Source of the DNA: Candidatus Thiodiazotropha endoloripes
GTDB lineage: Bacteria; Pseudomonadota; Gammaproteobacteria; Chromatiales; Chromatiaceae
Direction of reading: 5' to 3'
Assembly (NCBI GenBank): GCA_001709035.1
Contig: LVKA01000002.1
Span: 1-64,000, forward strand
DNA: 64,000 bases
Under the pieces are notes generated by a model. It saw nothing but the letters and a program-made list of their open reading frames with translations, had not been told where the DNA came from and made no database searches. Made by a program: the position numbers and the translations under genes. Positions 117-14,237 of this stretch are shown one piece after another (within the stretch, counting starts at the first letter, position 1; every line of letters starts with the position of its first letter).

Positions 117-896
117 CTACTCAATTAGGACGACAGAAGCATCAGAAGCACGAATTGCCAATTGGTGTTTCAGTGGATAGGGTGCTGATTCTCCAACAAT
201 ACTGACCAGATAGATGCGATTTATTTTACGGATACGGCCCACCTGAAGCCCCGTTGCTCCCACTGTATTGAGCCACTGTTTTGCAACATCCTGTGCTTCA
301 GACCATTGATCAACCGGTAATGACCCACTGGCAAGTTGGAATTGATCAATGCGGCACTCTGTTTGTTGAATATTTGTAGCTGCTTCGGTTTGCTCTTTCA
401 ATGCAGAAATATCCACTGGGTGAAAAAGCAGTGCTCCTCGCTGATCCCGCTCGATATTCCAGTATTTAAAACCTGACAAGTCACTTGGCAGATTGCTTCT
501 CATAGCCTCAGACGGAGCTGTGGATATCTGTGGTGTTGGATCCGGGCTCTTAGCGGAGGGAGAAGTGGTCGTTGCAGGGATCAAAGTCAATGTGTTATCA
601 GAATCCCATTCAACCTGCCATCCATGGTTCTGCAACGCTTCTCCAAACTTACGTATCTCAGCTGTTTCTCTGTTTCCTGACGGAATGTCAGTGGTAATCT
701 CTTTTTTCGGTTGATGATAGATAACACTGCCATCCGCAGCGGTGTACTCCTGCCATCCCTGCTGCTGCAGGGATTCACGTAGCGACTCACTTAGGTTCTT
801 GGCCGGTTCCGCTAAGCCCGTAATTGGTAACCATAAAAAGACCCACAACAGCTGGATTGTGATGTGGAAATCGGAAATTGTATTTTTTTTTCTCAT
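117..896 (-). CDS. Exported protein of unknown function, probably sigma-54 dependent
   Basis: I do not recognise this family. The start at 896 is chosen because it has a strong ribosome binding site (GGAGGAG) and lies downstream of a sigma-54 promoter at 946-961; a longer frame opening at 962 would begin upstream of that promoter. The protein is about 259 residues, with an N-terminal signal peptide (hydrophobic core LLWVFLWLPITGLA). The mature part holds three similar short units, each a helix ending in GW or YW followed by a charged turn and a hydrophobic strand ending in P (LQQQGWQEY...YHQP, LQNHGWQVEW...TLIP, FKYWNIERD...LFHP). A Pro/Thr/Ser linker lies between the second and third. The C-terminal 80 residues form a separate alpha/beta-looking segment. 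It is divergent from the sensor kinase gene and shares the upstream palindrome with it. A periplasmic accessory factor of the cytochrome system is an inference only. Confidence 0.75.
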   Translation of the reverse strand: MRKKNTISDFHITIQLLWVFLWLPITGLAEPAKNLSESLRESLQQQGWQEYTAADGSVIYHQPKKEITTDIPSGNRETAEIRKFGEALQNHGWQVEWDSDNTLTLIPATTTSPSAKSPDPTPQISTAPSEAMRSNLPSDLSGFKYWNIERDQRGALLFHPVDISALKEQTEAATNIQQTECRIDQFQLASGSLPVDQWSEAQDVAKQWLNTVGATGLQVGRIRKINRIYLVSIVGESAPYPLKHQLAIRASDASVVLIE

Positions 897-945
897 TTTT
901 GCTCCTCCTTCAGATAGGGTATGGCGTTCAGATTCCCAATTTATG

Positions 946-961
946 AGCAAAACACAAGCCA
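946..961 (-). promoter_or_regulatory. Sigma-54 (RpoN) promoter of the exported unknown protein
   Basis: On the minus strand the sequence reads TGGCTTGTGTTTTGCT, which fits the -24/-12 consensus TGGCACG-N4-TTGCW. The invariant GG (960-959) and GC (948-947) have the correct spacing. The expected transcription start is near 935, about 40 nt before the ATG at 896. The palindromic activator site at 1019-1031 lies about 60 bp upstream of the -24 element. Confidence 0.75.
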
Positions 962-1014
962 AAGACCTAGATTTGAGGCTTCAAGGATAAAAGAATCGTT
1001 GGATTCTCCCTGGA

Positions 1015-1031
1015 AACATGACAAATTGTCA
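1015..1031. promoter_or_regulatory. Candidate upstream activating sequence, palindrome TGACAAATTGTCA
   Basis: The site is a perfect 6+1+6 inverted repeat (1019-1031) inside a 16-nt stretch AACATGACAAATTGTC. That stretch is repeated exactly at 9853-9868, upstream of the cytochrome operon. It sits in the divergent region between the exported unknown gene and the sensor kinase gene. It is the likely binding site of the sigma-54 activator encoded at 2953-4320. It could also autoregulate the kinase operon, for which I see no sigma-54 promoter. Confidence 0.65.
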
Positions 1032-1099
1032 GAAAAACGGGTTTTTTTTAATATTACAATCAGAACATCTGATCCTGAGCAACTGAGTTGTTACAAGTG

Positions 1100-2956
1100 A
1101 TGAACTGGATAAGCGATAGCCTGAATAGAAAATTCATACTCGGTACCACATCAGGTCTCGTCATAAGTACCCTGGTATTTCTATTGCTCTACATACCGAT
1201 CTATCAATCGGAACTGGAAGGGGCGAGAGCGGATACCGCCAACCAAGTCAACAAATTGCTGCAGGTTTCCTTGGAGAATGCCATGCTCAAGCGAGACTTG
1301 CCCGGGTTGAGTGAGATGGTTAATAAACTCGGGGAGCAAAAGGGTATCGTCAGGGTTTTCATTACCAATCCGGCCGGTGAGATCCGCTTCAGCAGTCGTG
1401 AAGGGGATTTTGGTAAAAAACTGGAATCCCCCTACCTGGCGAGTCTTCAATCAACCCGCTTCATACAGAATGAGTCACAGCAGGAGTTGCTGCGCAGCAT
1501 CAATCCCGTACACAACAAACCAGCCTGTAAAGAGTGTCATGGTCCAGCTGAGCAGAATCCGATCAACGGTATACTCTATGTCGACTACGACGCCAGCCCA
1601 ATCAGACACAAGGTAAGTACTACCACCCTGATGCTGATGAGTGCAGGATCCCTGATTGTGATTCTCAACCTGGTCGGTGGCTGGTGGTTCATACACAGTC
1701 ATGTTCTCAGACCGGTCAATCAGCTCACGAGTGCAAGTCAGGAGTTGACGGGTGGGAATTTACAAACCCGGGTCGACATGCAGGGATCAGATGAACTCAG
1801 CCGACTCGGCTCTACCTTCGATCTGATGGCGGAGCGGTTGCATGAGAAAATGCTTGAGTTGGAGGAGCAGCGGGGATTCCTGCAGGCACTGGTTGATGCC
1901 ATCCCGGACGGGATCAGGATTATTGATGAAAACTTCAAAGTTGTGCTCGTCAATAAAGCCTATTGTGAACAACACAGGCTTGAGGATAGATTGGAAGTCG
2001 GTGCAACCTGTTACGGTGTCACGCACAACGGTAACAAACCCTGTCCGCCGACGCTGATCAACTGCCCGATTCATGAAATGTCGCTGAGCAAAACGCCGAT
2101 CAAAGTGGTGCATCAACACCACCGTTTGGATCTTACAACCTTTGAGGTGGAGATTTTTGCGGCGCCGATGACGATTCGGCAAGGTGGGAAGGAGAAGACC
2201 CTGATTGTTGAATCAATTCGTGATCTTGAAAAAGCGGTTAAATATTCCCAGGAACAGAAACTCTCAGAATTAGGGCGTCTAGCCACAGGTGTGGCTCATG
2301 AGATTCATAATCCTCTGGCATCACTTAAGTTGGCAATGGATGCCACCAAGAACGAGATTGTCGTCAGAAACAACTTCACGGATGACATCAAACAAAATTT
2401 TGAACTGATTGATGATCAGATCAATACCTGTATTGAGATTACCGGCAAGTTGTTGAAGCTGGGTGCCTTGCCACAGGAAAACCTGGAGCTGGTTGATGTT
2501 GCAGCTGCTATCAATGACACACTTGCGCTGATCAGATGGCAGGCAGATGAGGCGAACATCACAATTGAAGAGAAGTATGAGAATGAGACCCTCAGGGTCC
2601 TGGCCTCTGACAGTGAAATCAGGATGGTAGCTCTCAATCTCACGCAGAATGCCTTTCATGCCATGCCGAGTGGTGGCATTTTAACGGTTTCCTGCTCGGT
2701 GGTTGAGGATAAGGTTCAGATGGTTTTCTCTGATACCGGTGCTGGAATCCGGCCGAAAGATTTGCCCTATATTTTTGATCCATTTTTCTCTCGTCGTGCC
2801 GACGATGTCAGAGGTACGGGTTTAGGTCTTTCAATCAGTTTGGCGATAATAGAAAAATATGGTGGAACCATAAATGTGACCAGTGAAGTATCTGTTGGCA
2901 GTGTGTTTACTGTGGTACTGCCGAATGCTCAGAACGAACTGGAGGGGGATAGATGA
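1100..2956 (+). CDS. Membrane sensor histidine kinase with periplasmic c-heme motif and Cys-PAS domain
   Basis: About 618 residues from the ATG at 1100; a TTG at 1088 would add four. Residue numbers here count from that TTG. Order: TM helix (~16-38), periplasmic sensor of ~140 residues, TM helix (~181-202), HAMP (~203-255), PAS (~263-378), HisKA with H-box VAHEIHNPL (phospho-His ~404), N-box near 521, HATPase with DTGAGI and GTGLGLS. The sensor ends in CKECH (147-151), a CXXCH covalent heme attachment motif, just before the second TM helix. The PAS domain carries a C-Y-x3-H-x5-C-x6-C motif (C308, H313, C319, C326), a pattern seen in PAS domains of some anaerobe kinases and probably metal or redox binding. 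The stop overlaps the start of the response regulator by 4 nt. Heme-based redox or ligand sensing is inferred from the motif. Confidence 0.9.
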   Translation: MNWISDSLNRKFILGTTSGLVISTLVFLLLYIPIYQSELEGARADTANQVNKLLQVSLENAMLKRDLPGLSEMVNKLGEQKGIVRVFITNPAGEIRFSSREGDFGKKLESPYLASLQSTRFIQNESQQELLRSINPVHNKPACKECHGPAEQNPINGILYVDYDASPIRHKVSTTTLMLMSAGSLIVILNLVGGWWFIHSHVLRPVNQLTSASQELTGGNLQTRVDMQGSDELSRLGSTFDLMAERLHEKMLELEEQRGFLQALVDAIPDGIRIIDENFKVVLVNKAYCEQHRLEDRLEVGATCYGVTHNGNKPCPPTLINCPIHEMSLSKTPIKVVHQHHRLDLTTFEVEIFAAPMTIRQGGKEKTLIVESIRDLEKAVKYSQEQKLSELGRLATGVAHEIHNPLASLKLAMDATKNEIVVRNNFTDDIKQNFELIDDQINTCIEITGKLLKLGALPQENLELVDVAAAINDTLALIRWQADEANITIEEKYENETLRVLASDSEIRMVALNLTQNAFHAMPSGGILTVSCSVVEDKVQMVFSDTGAGIRPKDLPYIFDPFFSRRADDVRGTGLGLSISLAIIEKYGGTINVTSEVSVGSVFTVVLPNAQNELEGDR

Positions 2957-4320
2957 AATCCAAACTCGTAGTAGTAGAGGATGACGATACACTCAGGACT
3001 CTGATGATACAGCATCTGTCTAATTTGGACTATGAGGTGGAAGGGCTGAGTCGTTGGCACAGTGTAATGGACTACCTGGAAAAGTATGAGCCATCGTTGA
3101 TTATTACTGATGCCCGTCTGCCAGATGCCAATAGTCTTGAGTATATTGAAAATATATCGGTCAACTATCCAGTTATTGTTTTGACTGCATTTGGATCGGT
3201 GCGCGATGCCGTAAGCGCCATAAAAGCCGGCGCGGTGGATTATATATTAAAGCCGGTCAGTCTCGATACATTGACAATAACCGTTGAGAGGGCACTCGAT
3301 AATGCCGCCTTGCGTAGAGACCATATGTTCTGCAAAAGGCAGTTGGAGCAGAGTATTCAGCGCAACTCCTCCCTGGTTGGAAACAGTGCTGCAATGGCTG
3401 AACTGAAACAGATGATCGGTGCTGTAGCGCCTAACGATATTACTGTATTGATACAGGGCGAGAGTGGTTCAGGTAAGGAATTGGTGGCACGGGCCATCCA
3501 TGCGCACAGCCATAGAAAAAAACACAACTATGTTGCCGTTGACTGCTGTACGCTCCAGGAAAACCTGTTTGAATCAGAATTGTTTGGCCATGAAAAAGGC
3601 GCATTTACCGGCGCTGACAAGCAGAAGAAGGGCCTGATCGAAGGGGCAGAGGGCGGCACGCTGTTTCTTGACGAAATTGGTGAAATCAACAGTAGTGGTC
3701 AGGCCAAACTTTTGCGTGTACTCGAAACCGGGCAATACCGGAGATTGGGGAGTACCAAGGATCTGACCGCAAATGTCAGAATTGTCGCTGCTACGAATCG
3801 GGATCTGGAAACCATGTCGGCTGAAGGTAACTTTCGTTCCGATCTGTTTTTCAGGCTCAATGCATTCAATATAATTATACCGCCATTGCGGGACCGGCGT
3901 GACGATATACCGGAGTTGGCTGCGCACTTTGTAAGTAATCACAATTTCTCGACACGCGTTATCAAAAACCTCTCTTCATCCGCGATTCGTTCGTTGGTCT
4001 CCTATGACTGGCCAGGTAACATCAGAGAACTGAAGAATGTGATCGAAAGGGCAATTATTCTCTCTGGTGACCGACAGATCATTAAGCCTGAGCATTTTTC
4101 ATTTAGCCGTATACTTGGCAAGAGTGAAGGAGTTGTCACTCTGAGTTTTGATCACGATCCTTCCATGGAGGAACTGGAAGCACACTACTTATCCTATCAG
4201 TTAAAGAAATACTCCGGGCGTCGGGGCAAAGTAGCCGAAGTCATGGGTATCAGTGAGCGAAGTATCTATCGTATGATCAAACGCTACGAGTTAGATGAAA
4301 ATAGTTACAAAGCAAGCTGA
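2953..4320 (+). CDS. Sigma-54-dependent response regulator, NtrC class
   Basis: The protein has 455 residues. The receiver domain (1-~120) has phospho-acceptor D53 (ITDARLPD), T78 and K100. The AAA+ domain has Walker A GESGSGKE (169-176), the sigma-54-contacting loop GAFTGA (216-221) and Walker [10 protein letters not shown] Fis-type helix-turn-helix at the C-terminus (~420-445, [18 protein letters not shown]) binds DNA. All parts needed for an active enhancer-binding protein are present. It is translationally coupled to the kinase and is the obvious activator of the two sigma-54 promoters at 946-961 and 9762-9777. The gene converges on the cytochrome gene at 4330-4662. Confidence 0.95.
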
Positions 4321-4329
4321 TCGAGATAG

Positions 4330-4662
4330 CTACTGTTTGGCTAGCCAAACTGAAATGAAACGTATCTCCTGCTCACTGACTGCGCTCATGATGCCCTTCA
4401 TCACACTTGACATACTGTTTGACCGACTGCCGTTCTTGAAATCCCTCATCTGATTGTAAAGGTACCCTTCGTTTTGCCCAGCTATGATTGGGTAATAAGG
4501 TGTTGTTGGCGTTCTGCCATCCACTCCATGGCAACCGGCACACGCTTTCGCCAGATAGAGACTGGCAATATTGCCATCTGAATTCTCTGCATAAGCGCTG
4601 GAAATCGCTATTGTGGCGATCAGAAGAAAACTGGATCTACCAATGTATTTTGATTTTTTCAT
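4330..4662 (-). CDS. Monoheme c-type cytochrome (cytochrome c4/c553-like)
   Basis: About 110 residues with a cleavable signal peptide (hydrophobic core FLLIATIAI, cleavage after SSAYA). A single heme motif CAGCH lies at residues 41-45, and Met residues at 84, 88 and 92 could serve as the distal ligand, as expected for a class I periplasmic cytochrome. The start at 4662 was chosen over 4683 because the signal peptide begins there with MKKS and an AGGTTG element precedes it. It closely resembles the cytochrome at 5614-5940: both have the xGxDGxxP loop after the heme and the same C-terminal W-L-A helix. It is probably an electron carrier for the neighbouring NrfD-type complex and is likely cotranscribed with the gene at 4705-5076. 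Confidence 0.88.
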   Translation of the reverse strand: MKKSKYIGRSSFLLIATIAISSAYAENSDGNIASLYLAKACAGCHGVDGRTPTTPYYPIIAGQNEGYLYNQMRDFKNGSRSNSMSSVMKGIMSAVSEQEIRFISVWLAKQ

Positions 4663-4704
4663 ATCAACCTCTGAGGCTAACAAAAATCTGTATAATTTCT
4701 GTAC

Positions 4705-5076
4705 TCAATCGAACTCTGTCTCATCGCTTTGAAACATTCTGGCGACTTCAAAACGAAGCCGTTTTTCAATGCCAAGGCCTTGCCAGCCATGGGTATGATT
4801 TTTCACTCCCAATGCCAGGGGGAGTCCGTTACTGTTTCTGATAAGTAACGTTTCAGTGTCATCATCCGATATCTGGCTGATGATTTGCTCTCCGTACTGA
4901 TCCTGATAGTCCACATCACCCTCTGTGTCCCACAGATCACTTTGCATATCATCAAGGGTAACCACGGCCAATGGTTTTCCATCCATCATGCGAATGAACT
5001 GATTTATCTCATCCATGGTGCGAAGTCTGGATTCTTCTACAGGATCTTCGCTAAACTTCAGAGTGTATTCAGGCAT
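4705..5076 (-). CDS. Hypothetical protein, 123 aa
   Basis: I do not recognise a family. The product is soluble, acidic and has no signal peptide or cysteines. It has an N-terminal helix-rich half (VEESRLRTMDEINQFIRMM) and a C-terminal half with strands around LLIRNSNGLPLALG. It lies 42 nt upstream of the cytochrome at 4330-4662 in the same direction and diverges from the gene at 5114, so the 37-nt gap must hold both promoters. A cytoplasmic role is likely; nothing further can be said. Confidence 0.7.
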   Translation of the reverse strand: MPEYTLKFSEDPVEESRLRTMDEINQFIRMMDGKPLAVVTLDDMQSDLWDTEGDVDYQDQYGEQIISQISDDDTETLLIRNSNGLPLALGVKNHTHGWQGLGIEKRLRFEVARMFQSDETEFD

Positions 5077-5113
5077 AGGTTATCCTTGTTGGAAAAACTA
5101 ATGAGAGATTGTC

Positions 5114-5572
5114 ATGACAGATCATAAGCCCAAGGTCAAAAAACGAGCGGGGAAAGTCGTCCACAGTGCTGTCTCGCTGCACGCCCGGGAAAAAGCGGAA
5201 GAGATACGCGGACGCTATGATCGGGTAATTGACTACCAGACTGTACTTGAGATGCTTGAGGATCGAAAATCCGTCCGCTACCCGGTAGAGCTCAGATTTG
5301 TCTCCGAGGGTATCGAGCCCGGTATGTTTGCCAGAACTGAACCAGTCTCGGAGAATCCCGAAGATGGTTACACCATCATGCTGCATAACTCTTTTGAAAA
5401 TCGACATGACGATCTTCCTATGCTCATCCTCTATCAATTGGTACTGGTCAACTATGGCGATCTCGCTACGGCCAACGATGCAGAAATTTTCGGTGCAACC
5501 ATCCTCGGGTTGGACCGCGATACCTACTATCAACAGGTTGCTGCTTTGGTTGATGACGTCTGGACTGATTGA
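5114..5572 (+). CDS. Hypothetical protein, 152 aa
   Basis: No family recognised. The basic N-terminus (MTDHKPKVKKRAGKVVH) is followed by an alpha-helical, acidic body without membrane segments or cysteines. A minus-strand frame over the same bases (5069-5617) is a poor protein; this plus-strand frame has normal codon use. It runs against the surrounding minus-strand cytochrome genes and converges on the one at 5614. Its start codon sits inside the palindrome GTCATGAC. Confidence 0.65.
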   Translation: MTDHKPKVKKRAGKVVHSAVSLHAREKAEEIRGRYDRVIDYQTVLEMLEDRKSVRYPVELRFVSEGIEPGMFARTEPVSENPEDGYTIMLHNSFENRHDDLPMLILYQLVLVNYGDLATANDAEIFGATILGLDRDTYYQQVAALVDDVWTD

Positions 5573-5613
5573 TGCAGATGATTCAACCAATTGGTGCTGT
5601 TTGGATCTAAAAA

Positions 5614-5940
5614 TCATTCAGACAGTGACGCAAGCCATTTTGCCAACACGGCAATCTCTTCGTCACTCACCAGGTGCATAACATTCTTCATCGCGACAGA
5701 ATGTGCATTTGTTCTGTAGCCGCTCTTAATATCCTTCATTTGTGTCAATAGATAGGCCTCAGCTTGGCCGGCTAATTTTGGATATTCGTCCATCACCGGC
5801 TGCTTACCATCGGCACCATGGCAGGCAATACAGGTTCGTTCGTGATAGAGCGCCGCTGCATCCATAGCCAGTGCATAGACCGGTAATATAAAAAGGACGA
5901 TAAATAGAGTTGCGCTGATCATTCTGGGTTGACTTATCAT
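5614..5940 (-). CDS. Monoheme c-type cytochrome, last gene of the NrfD operon
   Basis: The protein has 108 residues with an N-terminal signal peptide (core ISATLFIVLFILPVYALA), one heme motif CIACH (37-41) and candidate distal Met residues 84 and 88. It is class I and like the cytochrome at 4330-4662. The start at 5940 has a GGAAAA element upstream; Met7 is an alternative. It is the distal gene of the minus-strand run starting at 9600, separated from the tetraheme gene by 114 nt with no promoter that I can identify. It probably shuttles electrons between the membrane complex and another periplasmic partner. Confidence 0.88.
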   Translation of the reverse strand: MISQPRMISATLFIVLFILPVYALAMDAAALYHERTCIACHGADGKQPVMDEYPKLAGQAEAYLLTQMKDIKSGYRTNAHSVAMKNVMHLVSDEEIAVLAKWLASLSE

Positions 5941-6054
5941 GACAATTTTCCGTGTATAAACTGGATAGGATCTGAGTATGGGGTAAACGAGCCTTGCTCT
6001 ATAAACACTGGATTCATCGTATGTTATGTGAATGCATAGATTCAGCCTGTGGCA

Positions 6055-6867
6055 TCACTCATGACCTGTTTCGTCCGGGTGTGAACCATGATGCATCCGT
6101 TCGTGATTCGCATTGACCATTCCCTTGGGCAGGTTAGGCGCCGGTTCCGGGCGTAGCTGAGCAAAGCCTGAGTTTCTCTCCTTCTGTTCAACATCGTGTG
6201 GATTATGGCATTCAGTACAGACCCACCAGCGTTTCTTTCCTCCTTTGTCCCACATGCCGATACGCTTGCCATGAAGACCATCCCGCCAGGCCCGATAGAC
6301 CTGTCCATGGCATTTTCCACACAGCTTCTGGGGCTGGTTGAAACTGATTGAGTATCCGAAATTGTCAATCAGTTTGGTACGTTCCACCAGATGGTGACAA
6401 TCCAGACACCAGATGTTTCCCTTACCATGCTTGAGATTCATGGCATCCGGTACCGTGTCCAGATGCATTTTAAGTGGGCGTGGAGTCTTGCTATGGGGAA
6501 TCGGCACATAATTGCCGTCATGACAGGCCATGCTGCAGATGGTCAGCATTTTATTTTTATCGAGTTCTGGCTCACGGGGTTTCACCACCGCCTCTTCATT
6601 GGAGTAGTCTGCCTCGATATCCATATCTCCCATGGGAATAGTGCCTGCGAACGGATCACCCCACCAGAGAACCCCTCCGGTGGTTGATGAGCACTTGACA
6701 TTCACCAGCCCAGGGCTGATTTCACGAACCCTGACCTGTGACATACCGTCCCGGCTCTCGAAACACTCCTGGTCAGTCTGATTTTCTGTGGCCAGCAGAG
6801 GGCTGGTGAATAGAAAAAGCAGCAGACATAAACCAAAGAGTGTCTGATGATTTCGATAGCATGTCAT
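6055..6867 (-). CDS. Periplasmic tetraheme cytochrome c with one CX3CH site
   Basis: About 270 residues from the ATG at 6867, which has a GGAG site 8 nt upstream; the longer frame begins with TTG. A signal peptide (LFGLCLLLFLFTSPLLA) directs export. Heme motifs are CSMACH (111-116, three residues between the cysteines), CLDCH (154-158), CGKCH (183-187) and CTECH (217-221). The last 40 residues are rich in His, which could supply distal ligands. The N-terminal ~100 residues before the first heme have two Cys (C35, C59). In NrfBCD-, Qrc- and Cbc-type complexes the multiheme subunit exchanges electrons with the ferredoxin/NrfD pair; this subunit probably does the same. It is not NrfB, which has five hemes, nor a recognisable DsrJ. 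Confidence 0.85.
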   Translation of the reverse strand: MTCYRNHQTLFGLCLLLFLFTSPLLATENQTDQECFESRDGMSQVRVREISPGLVNVKCSSTTGGVLWWGDPFAGTIPMGDMDIEADYSNEEAVVKPREPELDKNKMLTICSMACHDGNYVPIPHSKTPRPLKMHLDTVPDAMNLKHGKGNIWCLDCHHLVERTKLIDNFGYSISFNQPQKLCGKCHGQVYRAWRDGLHGKRIGMWDKGGKKRWWVCTECHNPHDVEQKERNSGFAQLRPEPAPNLPKGMVNANHERMHHGSHPDETGHE

Positions 6868-6914
6868 GTTTTTCTCCAAATCGAGTATGCCTGTTCATTC
6901 CAAGCTTCATTCAC

Positions 6915-8168
6915 TCAGGTTGCCGCTTCTGCCTGCTGCTCTGAAACGGCCTGTTTGCTGGATTCGGTTCTGTAACGAACCTCTCCCTGAAGTACCGCCA
7001 CCGCACCTTTCAGCATGAAGGTAAGCAGGAAGAAACCAATTGCCCAGATACCACCCACCACCATCAATTCAATATGGCTTGGGGTATACTCAGCGAACTC
7101 GCCAACCGGGGTTGGAATCACGCCAGGCAGCATCAATCCCATACCTTTTTCGACCCAAATGCCGATGAATGCGGCAATACAGATGAACGGCAGCAGCGTT
7201 AGGTTTTTTCTTATCCTGGGGATCAGCAGCAGGATGAAGGATCCCACCATCAGGGAGAGTGCAGTCCAGAAAAAGGGCACCAGACTATTCAAACCATTGT
7301 GTCCGAACATCAGATATTGCAGTCCCAGTGAGTGTTCGGTCGCGGGATAGAGTTCAGTCACAATCTCAGACATGGTCAGAAACAGTGCAATACCAAGACA
7401 CCAAACCACAATCTGGGAGAGTAGATGGAAGGCTTCGTCAGCGATTTTCATGGGGGTGAAACGGCGTACCAGTAAAAACACAACAATGATGAGTGATGGT
7501 CCGGCAGCAAAAGCGGTGGTGATGAACTTGATCGGCATCATTGAATGGAACCACATGGGTCGTGCCGGCATGGTATTGATCAGGAATGCAGTCACTGTGT
7601 GGATACTCAATGCCCAGACAATGGCAATATAGACGACCGGCAGATAGAAGGATTTATTGATTTCACCGCCACTATATTTCTTATAGAGGTAGTAATAGCC
7701 TCCAATAATATTCAACAACAGATAACCATTCAGCACGATCACATCCCATGTCAGCATGGCATGCGGAAAGTTGAAAATGCCGATAACCGGCAGTAAATGC
7801 CAGAGTCGGTCGGGTCTTCCCATATGTGCAATCACAAACAGCAGGCACATAACTACCGCCGCAATGGCGATCATTTCACCCAGCACCACGATCCGATGAA
7901 GCTCTTTGTGTTTATAGACATAGGCGGGAAAAACCACGGTCACTGCAGCCGCTGCCACACCCACCATGAAGACAAAATTGGCCAGATAGAATCCCCAACT
8001 GACTTGATCGTTAAGATTGGTGACAATCATGCCATTGGCGATCTGTACATACTCGCCATAACCCCAGAGCATGATGAAAAACAGCAGGAACAGCATCCAG
8101 GCCCAGAATAGGAGACCGCCGGTAAATCCTGCCTTGAGGTAATCGACCACAAACTGAAGAAAGCGCAT
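6915..8168 (-). CDS. NrfD/DsrP/HmcC-like integral membrane subunit
   Basis: The protein has 417 residues and about ten hydrophobic helices, typical of the larger NrfD-superfamily members (PsrC, DsrP, QrcD). The segment HMGRPDRLWHLLP matches the conserved H-x-G-R-P loop of the family. These proteins contact (mena)quinone at the periplasmic side and pass electrons to or from a partner ferredoxin. A GGAG site lies before the ATG, and only 14 nt separate it from the ferredoxin gene, so the two are surely cotranscribed. No molybdopterin catalytic subunit is encoded nearby, so the module is a quinone/cytochrome linker rather than a complete Psr- or Ttr-type reductase. Confidence 0.92.
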   Translation of the reverse strand: MRFLQFVVDYLKAGFTGGLLFWAWMLFLLFFIMLWGYGEYVQIANGMIVTNLNDQVSWGFYLANFVFMVGVAAAAVTVVFPAYVYKHKELHRIVVLGEMIAIAAVVMCLLFVIAHMGRPDRLWHLLPVIGIFNFPHAMLTWDVIVLNGYLLLNIIGGYYYLYKKYSGGEINKSFYLPVVYIAIVWALSIHTVTAFLINTMPARPMWFHSMMPIKFITTAFAAGPSLIIVVFLLVRRFTPMKIADEAFHLLSQIVVWCLGIALFLTMSEIVTELYPATEHSLGLQYLMFGHNGLNSLVPFFWTALSLMVGSFILLLIPRIRKNLTLLPFICIAAFIGIWVEKGMGLMLPGVIPTPVGEFAEYTPSHIELMVVGGIWAIGFFLLTFMLKGAVAVLQGEVRYRTESSKQAVSEQQAEAAT

Positions 8169-8182
8169 TATGGGGTCTCCTA

Positions 8183-9211
8183 TTAATCCATGTAGTAGAA
8201 AAACTTTGGATAGGTGTTGAGGTCTGCTCGCAGACGGAACACCTTCTTCTTGGCCAGAACCTTGCGGATTTCACTGTTCGGATCCAGCAGATTGCCGAAT
8301 TTGCGGGCTCCAACCGGGCAGACCTCGACACAGGCTGTCCAGCGGCCCTTGCGGGTACGTTGCACACAGAAGCTGCACTTCTCGACAACCCCTTTCATAC
8401 GTGGACGATTACCAAGATAGTGAGTGACAGGATTCATCTCCTCCTTGGGTAGATTGGGTTCACCCCAATTGAAACGTCTTGCCCAGTAGGGGCAGGCGCC
8501 AATGCACATGCGGCAGCCAATGCACCAGTTGTAGTCGATGACGACAATACCATCCGGGTCCCGGTAGGTTGTTCGTACCGGGCAGACCTTGACGCAGGGC
8601 GGCTTCTCACACTGCATACACTGCATGGGGAAATAGAAGGCGTCCTTTTCCGGAACCTGTTCCGGTTCATAGTAGTGTTGGCCTTCCAGTACAACACCGG
8701 CTGGTTTGTAGGCATTACCGCCCACCTGAACGCCAAACGATTCCGGATAACCATGTTGATCCCTGTCCGTTTCTGAAAACTTTCCCTTTTCCATGCGTAA
8801 TACCCGGATCCACTCGATCTGCTGCTCATCTCCGCGAGACTGATTATTCTCGGCCACGCAGGCCTTCACGCATCGACGACAACCGATACACTTCTGGATA
8901 TTCAGTGCATATCCGAACAGAACTCCCTCAATGGAGGGCGTGCCATCGACCGTTACCTGCTTACCGTACTCTTCGGAATAGCGGGTCTCGAGTCGTTCGA
9001 TGGCCTGCTGTTTCTCCTCGTCCGTCATCAGTCGATAGTTCTTCTGGAAGTGCTCCTCCCATGTCACATTGGCTTTTGCCGGTTTCGGATCGGAGAGCAG
9101 CATTGCTGCACCGGAGAGTGAGGCCACCGTATAATTTCCCGCACTGCGCAGGAAATCCCGGCGGCTGGTGAGTTTGTTATCTTTTGTTTTGCTCGAATCT
9201 TGTTTCGGCAT
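8183..9211 (-). CDS. Tat-exported 4Fe-4S ferredoxin subunit, DsrO/HmcB-like
   Basis: The protein has 342 residues. A twin-arginine signal (TSRRDFLRSAG, ~15-25) sends the folded protein to the periplasm. Four cysteine groups follow: CIGCRRCVKAC, CMQCEKPPCVKVCP, CIGCRMCIGACP and a last pair, CSFC plus ACVEVCP, enough for up to four [4Fe-4S] clusters. The stretch YWARRFNW and the C-terminal end LNTYPKFFYYMD are typical of the DsrO/HmcB group. It forms the electron wire between the NrfD-like membrane protein encoded next and the tetraheme cytochrome. The start at 9211 has GAGGA upstream. Confidence 0.92.
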   Translation of the reverse strand: MPKQDSSKTKDNKLTSRRDFLRSAGNYTVASLSGAAMLLSDPKPAKANVTWEEHFQKNYRLMTDEEKQQAIERLETRYSEEYGKQVTVDGTPSIEGVLFGYALNIQKCIGCRRCVKACVAENNQSRGDEQQIEWIRVLRMEKGKFSETDRDQHGYPESFGVQVGGNAYKPAGVVLEGQHYYEPEQVPEKDAFYFPMQCMQCEKPPCVKVCPVRTTYRDPDGIVVIDYNWCIGCRMCIGACPYWARRFNWGEPNLPKEEMNPVTHYLGNRPRMKGVVEKCSFCVQRTRKGRWTACVEVCPVGARKFGNLLDPNSEIRKVLAKKKVFRLRADLNTYPKFFYYMD

Positions 9212-9264
9212 GGTTGTCCTCTGATCGAGTGGCTATCAAATAGGCGTGAACCAGCTCATGCTGC

Positions 9265-9600
9265 TCAGGTTTTATTGTTATAGTTGTCAATGAACGATTG
9301 CAGCATTGCCTCCTTCTCCTGGTTGGTCATTACCACATATTCTCTCTGACTGAGTTCTGTCTCTCCTTGTGTGGCATCTCGATGGTATTTCTGTTTCAAG
9401 TCAGGCTCTGGAACAGCATCGACAACGCTCTTCGCCAAGCCTGCGGTTCCGGTGACACCCACTGCACCGATGGCTGCCTGCCTGAAGAGTCGTCTGCGGA
9501 CTGGATTGGGCTCATCAGAGCTTTTCAGGTCAGACTTCTGCTGATTCTTATAATCGCCGAACAACCACTGCTCTATTCGATTGAGCCACTGTTTAATCAT
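9265..9600 (-). CDS. Small Tat-type protein, first gene of the NrfD operon
   Basis: The protein has 111 residues and GGAG 6-9 nt before the start. After a basic cytoplasmic-looking N-terminus comes a twin-arginine-like segment (PVRRRLFRQAAIGAVG, ~33-48) with a hydrophobic stretch, then ~60 hydrophilic residues. The tail YVVMTNQEKEAMLQSFI resembles YRLMTDEEKQQAIERL in the ferredoxin subunit encoded next, so the two share a Tat-plus-helix module, but this protein has no cysteines. It may be an anchor, chaperone or structural subunit of the complex. Its exact function is unknown. Confidence 0.8.
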   Translation of the reverse strand: MIKQWLNRIEQWLFGDYKNQQKSDLKSSDEPNPVRRRLFRQAAIGAVGVTGTAGLAKSVVDAVPEPDLKQKYHRDATQGETELSQREYVVMTNQEKEAMLQSFIDNYNNKT

Positions 9601-9761
9601 CTAGGTCTCCCCATGGCCTGTGTCAGTTATCACTTGATTTCGTAACAGGACACGATGCCAGTCGGCATCGATTCACTGTTGGCAGTAAGCAAGCCCGAAT
9701 GGCACAACACGCTGTTATGTTGGTTTTTATGGCAAACGTGCGAACTGATTCATGTGAAAAC

Positions 9762-9777
9762 AGCAATCCTTATGCCA
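9762..9777 (-). promoter_or_regulatory. Sigma-54 promoter of the NrfD-cytochrome operon
   Basis: On the minus strand the sequence is TGGCATAAGGATTGCT, a close match to TGGCACG-N4-TTGCW with GG (9776-9775) and GC (9764-9763) correctly spaced. Transcription would begin near 9751, giving a leader of about 150 nt before the start at 9600. The palindromic site at 9857-9869 lies about 80 bp upstream of the -24 element, a normal enhancer distance. Confidence 0.8.
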
Positions 9778-9852
9778 GATATGGAATGGTGCAGATATCC
9801 CTTTGTCTACTATGGAAAAAAATTAAACGGTAGAAAGCCAACGCAAACCAAT

Positions 9853-9869
9853 AACATGACAAATTGTCG
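9853..9869. promoter_or_regulatory. Candidate upstream activating sequence, second copy
   Basis: The 16-nt sequence AACATGACAAATTGTC is identical to 1015-1030. The palindrome runs 9857-9869 with 12 of 13 positions as in the first copy (last base G instead of A). It lies in the 577-nt gap 9601-10177, which holds no gene that I can support. The rest of that gap upstream of 10178 shows nothing definite. Confidence 0.65.
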
Positions 9870-12594: not shown

Positions 12595-12948
12595 ATGACC
12601 TCTAGAAACCTTTATAGGATGAGTGATCGAGCGCTGGCATCGGAAGTGGGGGAGCGCATCGAACAGTTGCGTCTTGAAGCCAATATAACCCAGAAGACGA
12701 TTGCGGATCAGTTGGGTATAACAGCAAAAACCTACCGCTCGACGATCCAGGGGCATGGCAAGTTCGAGACCATGATCGGGATTTTGCGGGTATTGGGTAA
12801 GCTGGAACTGGTGGAGGCTTTTGTGCCTGAGACCCCGTTAAGTCCACTGATGCTGATGGAGCTCAAGGGACGTAAGCGGAAGCGGGCTGCACCCGCAAAA
12901 GAAGAGGCCGTTCGGATGGAGGATGTAAAGGATGATCTGGGATGGTAG
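12595..12948 (+). CDS. hipB: HipB-like XRE-family antitoxin
   Basis: The protein has 117 residues; AAGGA precedes the ATG. The N-terminal half is a Cro/C1-type helix-turn-helix (EQLRLEANITQKTIADQLG then TAKTYRSTIQG), and the tail is basic then acidic (RKRKRAAPAKEEAVRM). It overlaps the hipA start by 7 nt, the usual order for hipBA. HipB proteins bind operator DNA and the HipA kinase, repressing the operon and neutralising the toxin. The C-terminal tail is the likely HipA-contacting part. Confidence 0.85.
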   Translation: MTSRNLYRMSDRALASEVGERIEQLRLEANITQKTIADQLGITAKTYRSTIQGHGKFETMIGILRVLGKLELVEAFVPETPLSPLMLMELKGRKRKRAAPAKEEAVRMEDVKDDLGW

Positions 12949-14237
12949 ATAAGATCCAGATAGCTCAAGTGAAGCTGTGGGGCGAACTGGTTGGTGCGCT
13001 GGCATTTGATGAGCAGAATGGATTGGGCACATTTGAATACACCAAATCGTGGCGCGAGAGTGGGTTGCAGCTATCACCACTGCATCTGCCGCTCAGTGAT
13101 CGAAAATTCCAGTTTCCCGAGTTGAACCGGGCTACCTACAAAGGCTTACCGGCCGCCTTTGCCGATTCATTGCCGGATGATTTCGGTAACGCCGTGATTG
13201 ATGCCTGGTTGGCGCGTCAGGGGAGGGATCCGGGCTCCTTCACCCCGGTTGAGCGGCTGCAGTATATGGGGCAGCGTGGCATGGGCGCGTTGGAGTATTT
13301 TCCGCAACCGGGTGATCGGCCCAGAAAAGATGGGGAGCTCAATCTTGAGAGTCTGGCAGAGATGGCGCAGAAGGTGATTGATGGTCGTGCCAATCTGCAG
13401 CTGGATGCGGACACAAATGGTCTCGAGACCCTGTTTCAGGTCGGGACTTCAGCCGGTGGAGCCCGTGCAAAGGCGGTTGTTGCCGTAGACAAGGCTCGGC
13501 GTAGAATTCGCAGTGGTCAGGTGGCGCTGGAAGATGGATATGAGCACTATTTGCTTAAGTTCGATGGGATTGTAGAGTCAAGCCGATCCCAGCAGACATT
13601 CGGGGATCCTCAGGGATATGGCCGGATGGAATATGCCTACTATTTGATGGCCAGGGCGGTCGGTATTGATATCTCTGAGTGTGAGTTACTGCAGGAAGGG
13701 GATCGGGCGCATTTTCTCACCAGACGATTTGATCGGGACGGTAATCGAAAGCTTCACTACCAATCGCTTTGTGCCATGGATCATGCGGATTACAGGCAGC
13801 CTGGCCACTACAGCTATGAAGCGCTATTCGGTGTATTGCGCAGTTTACGTTTCAATCGTCCGACAGCGCTGGAACTCTACCGGCGGATGGTTTTCAATAT
13901 CGTGGCGCGCAATCAGGATGATCACACCAAGAACTTTGGTTTTCTGATGCAGCGCGATGGCAGTTGGACTCTGGCGCCGGCTTTCGATCTCGCCTACAGC
14001 TACAGAGCGGACTCGAAGTGGGTCAACAGTCATCAGTTGACACTGAATGGCAAGCGGGATGACTTCTCTTTGGCTGATCTGTTACAACCGGCAGAGCGCT
14101 TCAGGCCAGAGGCGAAAAGGATCATCCAGCAGATCACCGACACGGTGGCCGATTGGCCCCGCTATGCAGCAAAGGCAGGGGTGCCTAAGAAGCTGTCAGA
14201 GGTGATTAAAAAGAACCATCGGCTGAATCTCACTTGA
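12942..14237 (+). CDS. hipA: HipA-like serine/threonine kinase toxin
   Basis: The protein has 431 residues, the usual HipA length. The N-terminal couple_hipA domain (~1-110: VKLWGELVGAL, LPLSDRKF, LPDDFGN) is followed by the kinase-like HipA_C domain. The flexible P-loop TSAGGARAK aligns with the E. coli loop that contains autophosphorylated Ser150. The catalytic region NQDDHTKNFGF and the metal-binding PAFDLAYS are intact, so the kinase should be active. HipA of E. coli phosphorylates glutamyl-tRNA synthetase; the target here cannot be read from sequence. Coupled to hipB. Confidence 0.92.
   Translation: MVDKIQIAQVKLWGELVGALAFDEQNGLGTFEYTKSWRESGLQLSPLHLPLSDRKFQFPELNRATYKGLPAAFADSLPDDFGNAVIDAWLARQGRDPGSFTPVERLQYMGQRGMGALEYFPQPGDRPRKDGELNLESLAEMAQKVIDGRANLQLDADTNGLETLFQVGTSAGGARAKAVVAVDKARRRIRSGQVALEDGYEHYLLKFDGIVESSRSQQTFGDPQGYGRMEYAYYLMARAVGIDISECELLQEGDRAHFLTRRFDRDGNRKLHYQSLCAMDHADYRQPGHYSYEALFGVLRSLRFNRPTALELYRRMVFNIVARNQDDHTKNFGFLMQRDGSWTLAPAFDLAYSYRADSKWVNSHQLTLNGKRDDFSLADLLQPAERFRPEAKRIIQQITDTVADWPRYAAKAGVPKKLSEVIKKNHRLNLT

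Follow-up and report, generated by a model that had tools for sequence, protein, structure and literature searches.

The DNA analysed here (the window) consists of bases 1-64000 of contig C2 in the genome of the sulfur-oxidising clam symbiont Candidatus Thiodiazotropha endoloripes (4.87 Mb in 25 contigs), and this report concerns a locus at positions 117 to 9869, which contains a sensor kinase with a heme motif, its NtrC-type sigma-54 activator and an operon for an NrfD-type electron transfer module. Gene calls and family models recovered all components named in an initial annotation of this locus, i.e. the heme-motif kinase, the sigma-54 activator, a five-gene operon, an exported protein and an extra monoheme cytochrome, and added two conserved genes which that annotation had left unmentioned (u123 and u152). 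The features of the locus are as follows:

117..896, minus strand: exp259, exported 259-aa protein, leading gene of the reductase-side unit at the divergent promoter (see below), without Pfam or NCBIfam match
946..961, minus strand: sigma-54 (-24/-12) site TGGCTTGTGTTTTGCT for exp259 (GG-N10-GC)
1019..1031: palindrome TGACAAATTGTCA, putative activator site (sequence scan)
1100..2956, plus strand: sensor kinase with CxxCHG in the presumed periplasmic part, HAMP, Cys-rich PAS, HisKA and HATPase domains (family models)
2953..4320, plus strand: NtrC-type sigma-54 activator with receiver, AAA+ and Fis helix-turn-helix domains (PF00158, 228 bits)
4330..4662, minus strand: cytA, monoheme cytochrome c (PF00034)
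4705..5076, minus strand: u123, conserved 123-aa protein without family match
5114..5572, plus strand: u152, conserved 152-aa protein without family match
5614..5940, minus strand: cytB, monoheme cytochrome c (PF00034), last gene of the module operon
6055..6867, minus strand: tetraheme cytochrome with three CxxCH and one CxxxCH (motif reading)
6915..8168, minus strand: NrfD-type quinone-interacting membrane subunit, DsrP-like (NF045798, 358.7 bits against a cut-off of 350)
8183..9211, minus strand: twin-arginine (TAT)-type 4Fe-4S protein, DsrO-like (NF045797, 187.3 bits, below the cut-off of 200)
9265..9600, minus strand: TAT111, small twin-arginine protein without family match, first gene of the operon here and in the family loci
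9762..9777, minus strand: sigma-54 (-24/-12) site TGGCATAAGGATTGCT of the module operon (GG-N10-GC)
9857..9869: palindrome TGACAAATTGTCG upstream of the module operon (sequence scan)

The module operon runs on the minus strand from 9600 down to 5614 in the order TAT111, Fe-S protein, NrfD subunit, tetraheme and monoheme cytochrome, and its earlier description as a module of the quinone-cytochrome type is supported. The heme motif of the kinase reads CKECHG and is placed ahead of the HAMP domain, and CxxCHG is kept in 22/22 kinase homologues of differing sequence. At the place of the CxxxCH motif of the tetraheme cytochrome, L171 and L174, both distant relatives, have CxxCH. A comparison of the tetraheme sequence with the PDB gave no match below E 0.05, and its AlphaFold model (mean predicted local distance difference test score 35.9) was unusable and was not used.

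The MoA operon beyond the contig edge

The locus had been described as self-contained and without a catalytic subunit. The latter holds within the window but not beyond it: window base 1 is base 1 of contig C2 and thus a contig end, and the genes for a molybdoenzyme of the dimethyl sulfoxide (DMSO) reductase family, here called MoA, are found at the start of contig C14, so that this subunit only seems to be missing, on account of the contig edge. The reductase-side genes open C14, with p94 at 704, a gene for a methionine-rich protein at 1094-2131, a pentaheme cytochrome gene at 2249 and MoA at 3066-5630. In the sister genome G002, of which the tetraheme is 99% identical to that of the window, the order is unbroken: module, activator, kinase, exp259, p94, methionine-rich protein, pentaheme cytochrome, MoA, DmsB-like protein, TorD-like chaperone and polyferredoxin. 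When placed on G002, window base 74 and base 116 of C14 are separated by 28 nt. The outermost parts of both contigs (window bases 1-73 and L065:1-115, the start of C14) have no alignment to the sister genome, and a short sequence of about 16 bases was seen by eye in inverted copies at both ends; a mobile element or inserted repeat between exp259 and p94, having broken the assembly, would fit. Downstream of the MoA operon there is a gene for a protein with thioredoxin-like and NHL-repeat parts (L065:8340-9935), in the window genome as well as in G002 and G005.

Nor is the locus self-contained, as the kinase pair is tied to the MoA operon. The named relatives of the tetraheme gene include Candidatus Thiodiazotropha, other metagenome-assembled genomes (MAGs) of lucinid symbionts and Candidatus Sedimenticola endophacoides, with an Azonexus MAG more distant. 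The Azonexus locus (L045) contains both parts on one strand, in the order methionine-rich protein, p94, multiheme cytochrome, 854-aa DMSO-reductase-family protein, DmsB-like protein, TorD-like chaperone, Fe-S protein, NrfD subunit, tetraheme cytochrome, kinase and activator. With its 854-aa enzyme as query, 29/56 related genomes had a match at E<=1e-50, of which 28 were close (72-78% identity) and one, in G024, was 33% identical. The kinase (E<=1e-60) was found in 27/56 of these genomes, and all 27 have MoA, to which the kinase thus belongs first; the two are 2.2-4.2 kb apart in all 14 genomes which have them on the same contig, and are on separate contigs in the other 13. In 12 of the 19 kinase-bearing MoA loci, the stretch separating the kinase from the MoA operon contains a clear exp259 homologue. 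A close tetraheme (E<1e-100) is present in 19/56 related genomes, 18 of which have both kinase and MoA, with the tetraheme gene about 3.0-3.1 kb from the kinase in seven genomes, 1.1 Mb away in one and on another contig in ten.

Promoter pairs and the shared palindrome

As the initial annotation had noted, both outer minus-strand units have a -24/-12 site and the same palindrome upstream (at 1019 and 9857). Each sigma-54 site (961-946 and 9777-9762) has 10 of the 12 specified consensus bases, and the exact 12-mer TGACAAATTGTC is present in only three copies in the whole genome, two of them in the window at these positions. The third copy (C10:683232) was rejected as a member of the regulon, as it sits between convergent genes and is probably due to chance. 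When a sigma-54 site (at least 9/12) was required 40-150 nt after the palindrome (<=1 mismatch), the 64 kb contained two such pairs, at the exp259 and module promoters. Together with the AAA+ sigma-54 domain of the activator, these sites and upstream palindromes complete the set expected for a sigma-54 regulon.

The pair is conserved upstream of the module operon, since a palindrome (<=2 mismatches) with a GG-N10-GC site (at least 8/12) 40-130 nt further on was found in 16 of the 18 family loci (0.0 in shuffled sequences, which were mononucleotide shuffles throughout). These include loci whose operon and kinase are widely separated or on different contigs, and the conservation supports the earlier proposal of a sigma-54 regulon under the kinase/activator pair. 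In eleven of the 16 the palindrome has at most one mismatch, and in each of the 16 there is a pair with a spacing of 92-106 nt, start to start. Family loci were counted when they differed in the last 250 nt, with L064 and L167 (where the stretch ends) and L070 (a duplicate) skipped and the Azonexus locus placed in neither group; the family group includes L042 and L043, from genomes outside the kinase and MoA searches. Upstream of the kinase, a palindrome (<=1 mismatch) was present in 15/24 regions (0.06 in shuffles), some of these rows being duplicate genomes, and sigma-54-like sites were present in most of the regions listed. Upstream of p94, 17/20 loci have a sigma-54-like site, and in eight of the 20 a palindrome (<=2 mismatches, six with <=1) precedes a site of at least 9 by 40-150 nt (0.0 in shuffles).

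Module operons without kinase pair or palindrome had been named beforehand as what would speak against such a regulon. They do exist outside the family, where no promoter pair was found in seven loci from MoA-less genomes (0/7, the upstream region being measured from the Fe-S gene in six of these, and the kinase searched for in one, G032), nor in a second scan of up to 1500 nt upstream (613 nt for L168); the family itself mostly keeps the pair. On this comparison the regulon is well supported, and we consider it very probable that reductase operon and NrfD module share it, with the palindrome as the presumed binding site of the activator.

MoA, the methionine-rich protein and a possible sulfoxide cycle

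In the window genome the methionine-rich protein has 345 aa, of which 27% are Met, with a signal-like N terminus (export was judged by eye) and GMSGMG repeats interrupted by short inserts, e.g. GYFKITPQGQIFFYP. The codon pattern of the repeat has 68 matches in this genome, all inside C14:1223-2098. A gene was counted as methionine-rich if 50 residues of a sense-strand frame held at least 10 Met and at least 10 Gly. By this measure 27 of the 33 MoA-clade loci surveyed (from 30 of the 45 genomes with MoA) have such a gene 0.9-2.2 kb ahead of MoA, as do 22/24 of those with at least 2.4 kb upstream, versus none of 17 control loci, of which the enzymes (16 of 24 distant hits from the wider-sample search, and the hit in G024) are 29-35% identical to MoA. 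The loci without a call are L073 (a fragment by eye), L100, L095, L103, L104 and L105, the last four having less than 2.4 kb upstream. The repeat open reading frames listed have 19-31% Met, and the MoA clade occurs in two proteobacterial classes. Second copies of a MoA-type operon in G002 and G008 (L107 on G002:C6 and L108 on G008:C2) also have a methionine-rich gene of their own, about 2.2 kb upstream, with no kinase in the stretch that was fetched.

MoA itself has the domains PF00384 (168.6 bits) and PF01568, and its best family model is TIGR02166 (DMSO/selenate reductase A, DmsA/YnfE) at 626.5 bits, below the cut-off of 777.7; the DmsB-like protein likewise scores below the cut-off of TIGR02951 (191.6 against 214.1). 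In a motif alignment of 30 of the 33 clade sequences with the 17 controls, each of the 12 motif types printed (23 of 30 sequences) has a Ser where the controls have their Mo-ligand Ser, and this Ser is presumably the Mo ligand of the MoA clade. MoA thus resembles DmsABC, YnfE and DorA in its family model, DmsB-like partner, TorD-like chaperone, TAT signal and aligned Ser, and differs from these in the scores below the curated cut-offs, in a His at FS0 where the printed DmsA-type controls have Cys (12 types printed, 14 sequences), and in its methionine-rich neighbour; a DmsC domain was seen at one of 33 loci (see below). The Tyr of the DorA SYGW motif (PMC7402097) is kept in 30/30 clade sequences. 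DorA is reported to reduce protein-bound methionine sulfoxide (MetO) in vitro (PMC7402097), and the DmsABC enzymes of E. coli and H. influenzae are both reported to reduce methionine sulfoxide, and hypochlorite and peroxide are reported to induce dmsA (PMC12096835).

In perchlorate reducers, the exported methionine-rich protein MrpX is likewise encoded together with a molybdoenzyme of the periplasm (MsrP/MsrQ, YedYZ), and oxidation and re-reduction of methionine are described there as oxidant sink and detoxification (PMC4623255). MoA is not a member of the MsrP group, which belongs to the sulfite oxidase family (PMC7402097), as it has the PF00384 and PF01568 domains of the DMSO reductase family, and it differs from the MrpX/MsrPQ system (sigF/nrsF) in its DmsB-like and pentaheme partners and its heme-kinase/sigma-54 switch. 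A literature search, mostly at the level of titles and abstracts, gave no description of the pair of methionine-rich protein and MoA among the matches listed; among those on Thiodiazotropha and Sedimenticola there was likewise none of a methionine-rich protein, with only PMC4623255 containing 'methionine-rich', without 'Thiodiazotropha', and no paper combining sigma-54 with periplasmic c-heme kinases was found.

We propose that the window represents one half of a two-operon respiratory regulon. The c-heme kinase would sense a redox change or a ligand and phosphorylate the NtrC-type activator, which would bind the palindrome TGACAANTTGTCA and fire the sigma-54 promoters. One promoter set would drive exp259 and, past the contig edge, p94, methionine-rich protein, pentaheme cytochrome, MoA, DmsB-like protein and TorD-like chaperone, and the other the NrfD/ferredoxin/tetraheme module. 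Because of the co-regulation and the Azonexus gene cluster, the module cytochromes probably feed MoA/DmsB, on a path which may run from quinol via NrfD, Fe-S protein, tetraheme and pentaheme cytochrome to DmsB/MoA, and from there to MetO in the repeat protein. This last step is proposed because DorA and DmsABC reduce MetO and methionine cycling by MrpX/YedYZ is known; by this analogy MetO in the repeat protein could be the physiological substrate of MoA, for which we see slightly less than even chances. MoA would then act on the exported GMSGMG protein as a sacrificial oxidant sink that is re-charged by respiration. For the explanation as a whole, i.e. a quinol-fed sulfoxide reductase under heme-sensor and sigma-54 control which acts on oxidised Met of the repeat protein, we regard the chances as evenly balanced. 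The wider notion of a respiratory methionine sulfoxide cycle, in which the GMSGMG protein is a large re-chargeable sink re-reduced by a dedicated heme/sigma-54-switched enzyme, is put forward tentatively. If true, oxidants derived from the host or from sulfide oxidation would serve as terminal electron acceptors, with protein methionine as the intermediary, and the cycle would be the job of a highly expressed enzyme of lucinid symbionts which is now annotated as DMSO reductase. The methionine-rich neighbour offers a candidate substrate for this long-unassigned enzyme, and the promoter pairs tie the electron supply module and the heme sensor to it. For two Thiodiazotropha clades, dmsB and a dmsD chaperone orthogroup are reported in a table of the highest transcripts of the upwelling season (PMC12172469); we infer that these are the MoA, DmsB and chaperone genes, because the only DmsA-type hit (E<=1e-50) in G010, taken as T. 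endolucinida, is MoA.

Several observations weigh against this explanation, and part of them concerns the link between module and reductase. The promoter pair is missing from two of the 18 family loci (L043 and L044), and no palindrome was found in the Azonexus upstream regions scanned. In a class sample of 369 genomes MoA was found in 16 and the tetraheme in eight, with both in two of the same genus, and in a phylum sample of 398 genomes the MoA clade was found in five and the tetraheme in three, with both only in the window genome; the MoA and tetraheme searches are taken as covering the same genomes, as totals and handles agree. Because the two come apart in this way beyond the family, the NrfD module is best read as a general unit which in this family has been recruited into, or wired to, the regulon of MoA. 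The same separation (tetraheme without MoA in 6/8 genomes of the class sample and 2/3 of the phylum sample) would suit a quinone-cytochrome junction that stands on its own, has no enzyme dedicated to it and is simply under the same control as MoA, and no adjacent terminal enzyme was seen among the loci listed (L167-L170 and L049); since the module is clustered with MoA in Azonexus and its family operon has the promoter of the MoA regulator, we consider this quite unlikely. Among the relatives, 10 of the 28 MoA genomes are without a close tetraheme, therefore another quinol donor must exist there. One possible alternative link is a 630-aa DmsB-DmsC fusion (4Fe-4S and DmsC; PF04976, 53.4 bits versus 22.3) near MoA in L140 (G488:C13, 364-2256), a locus where the module is absent; seen from MoA, the fusion gene is located past both the kinase and the activator gene.

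The remaining points against the proposed cycle concern its substrate: the Trp of SYGW is Gly in 30/30 clade sequences, and the repeat matches a collagen-like model above cut-off (35.0 versus 27.2 bits), making a structural role of the methionine-rich protein possible. If MoA is a terminal reductase for DMSO or a similar small S- or N-oxide, with the methionine-rich protein protective or unrelated, this would agree with its best family model, with the L140 fusion and with reports in which it is annotated as DMSO reductase and DMSO is named as possible acceptor (PMC6872982, PMC11237559). Such respiration would leave unexplained why a repeat gene of 19-31% Met accompanies MoA but not the control enzymes, and a hydropathy scan of the 33 MoA loci found the DmsC fusion in one and the NrfD module in five (other membrane open reading frames are unclassified and some stretches short), so that we consider it unlikely on balance. 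A metal (copper) binder or a collagen-like structural or surface protein, with MoA acting on something else, would fit the Met at every third position, as MxxM motifs bind copper, and the collagen match; the persistence of the repeat beside a sulfoxide-type reductase across two proteobacterial classes makes this very unlikely. Reduction of an oxyanion by MoA, with the methionine-rich protein mopping up reactive by-products in the manner of MrpX, has a precedent in yedYZ and mrpX, which are reported to go with perchlorate reductase islands and to detoxify hypochlorite (PMC4623255), and is given an equally small chance in view of the Ser at the aligned Mo-ligand position and the S-oxide-type relatives of MoA.

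Related modules and additional features

The NrfD subunit scores above the DsrP cut-off and the ferredoxin near but under that for DsrO, and both are thus akin to DsrOP of DsrMKJOP. A fragment of DsrMKJOP was rejected as an identity for the locus and the kinship kept, given the DsrO score and the lack of matches to DsrM, DsrK and DsrJ among the neighbouring products searched with family models; the cytochrome is a tetraheme rather than the triheme DsrJ. Modules with an Fe-S protein and a membrane subunit that pass electrons from quinol to cytochromes and have no catalytic subunit are reported for Geobacter (Cbc4, CbcSTU) and Shewanella (SirCD), of which SirCD can stand in for CymA in DMSO respiration (PMC11434368); an NrfD-type module of this kind is therefore not in itself new, and NrfD-containing complexes have been reviewed (PMC8076601). 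Compared by reported composition and not by sequence, the module described here differs from Cbc4 and SirCD in its DsrO-like family and in the extra TAT111, u123, u152 and monoheme genes. The kinase and activator resemble NtrC-family systems of the AtoS/AtoC and ZraS/ZraR type in domain order and best family matches, and differ from these in the conserved CxxCHG and Cys-rich PAS and in scoring far below the AtoS and AtoC cut-offs.

A second, distant set of Fe-S protein, NrfD subunit and multiheme cytochrome was seen in L050 (G023:C84, 3037-10263) next to a DmsB-like protein and a different enzyme of the molybdopterin type (24% identity to MoA), and this type of module may be reused with several molybdoenzymes. 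The genes u123 and u152 are often found beside the tetraheme module, including in the MoA-less G032 and G298. A gene for a UbiE/COQ5-type methyltransferase adjoins the tetraheme gene in T. endolucinida (L039:10923-11672) and in two MoA-less genomes (L168:3871-4641 and L169:10526-11302), which hints at a partner related to quinones; the Pfam assignment was made for the copy in L039. A similar stretch around a Y..MT..EK motif (by eye only) is present in TAT111 and in the N-terminal region of the Fe-S protein, which gives TAT111 the look of a relative of this region that lacks the cofactor. The AlphaFold model of exp259 was poor (55.6) except for approximately the last 65 residues, and its best Foldseek match (E 0.026) was not used for any conclusion. 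Further into the window, at 12595-14237 on the plus strand, there is a HipB/HipA-like gene pair (HTH_3; HipA_C and Couple_hipA).

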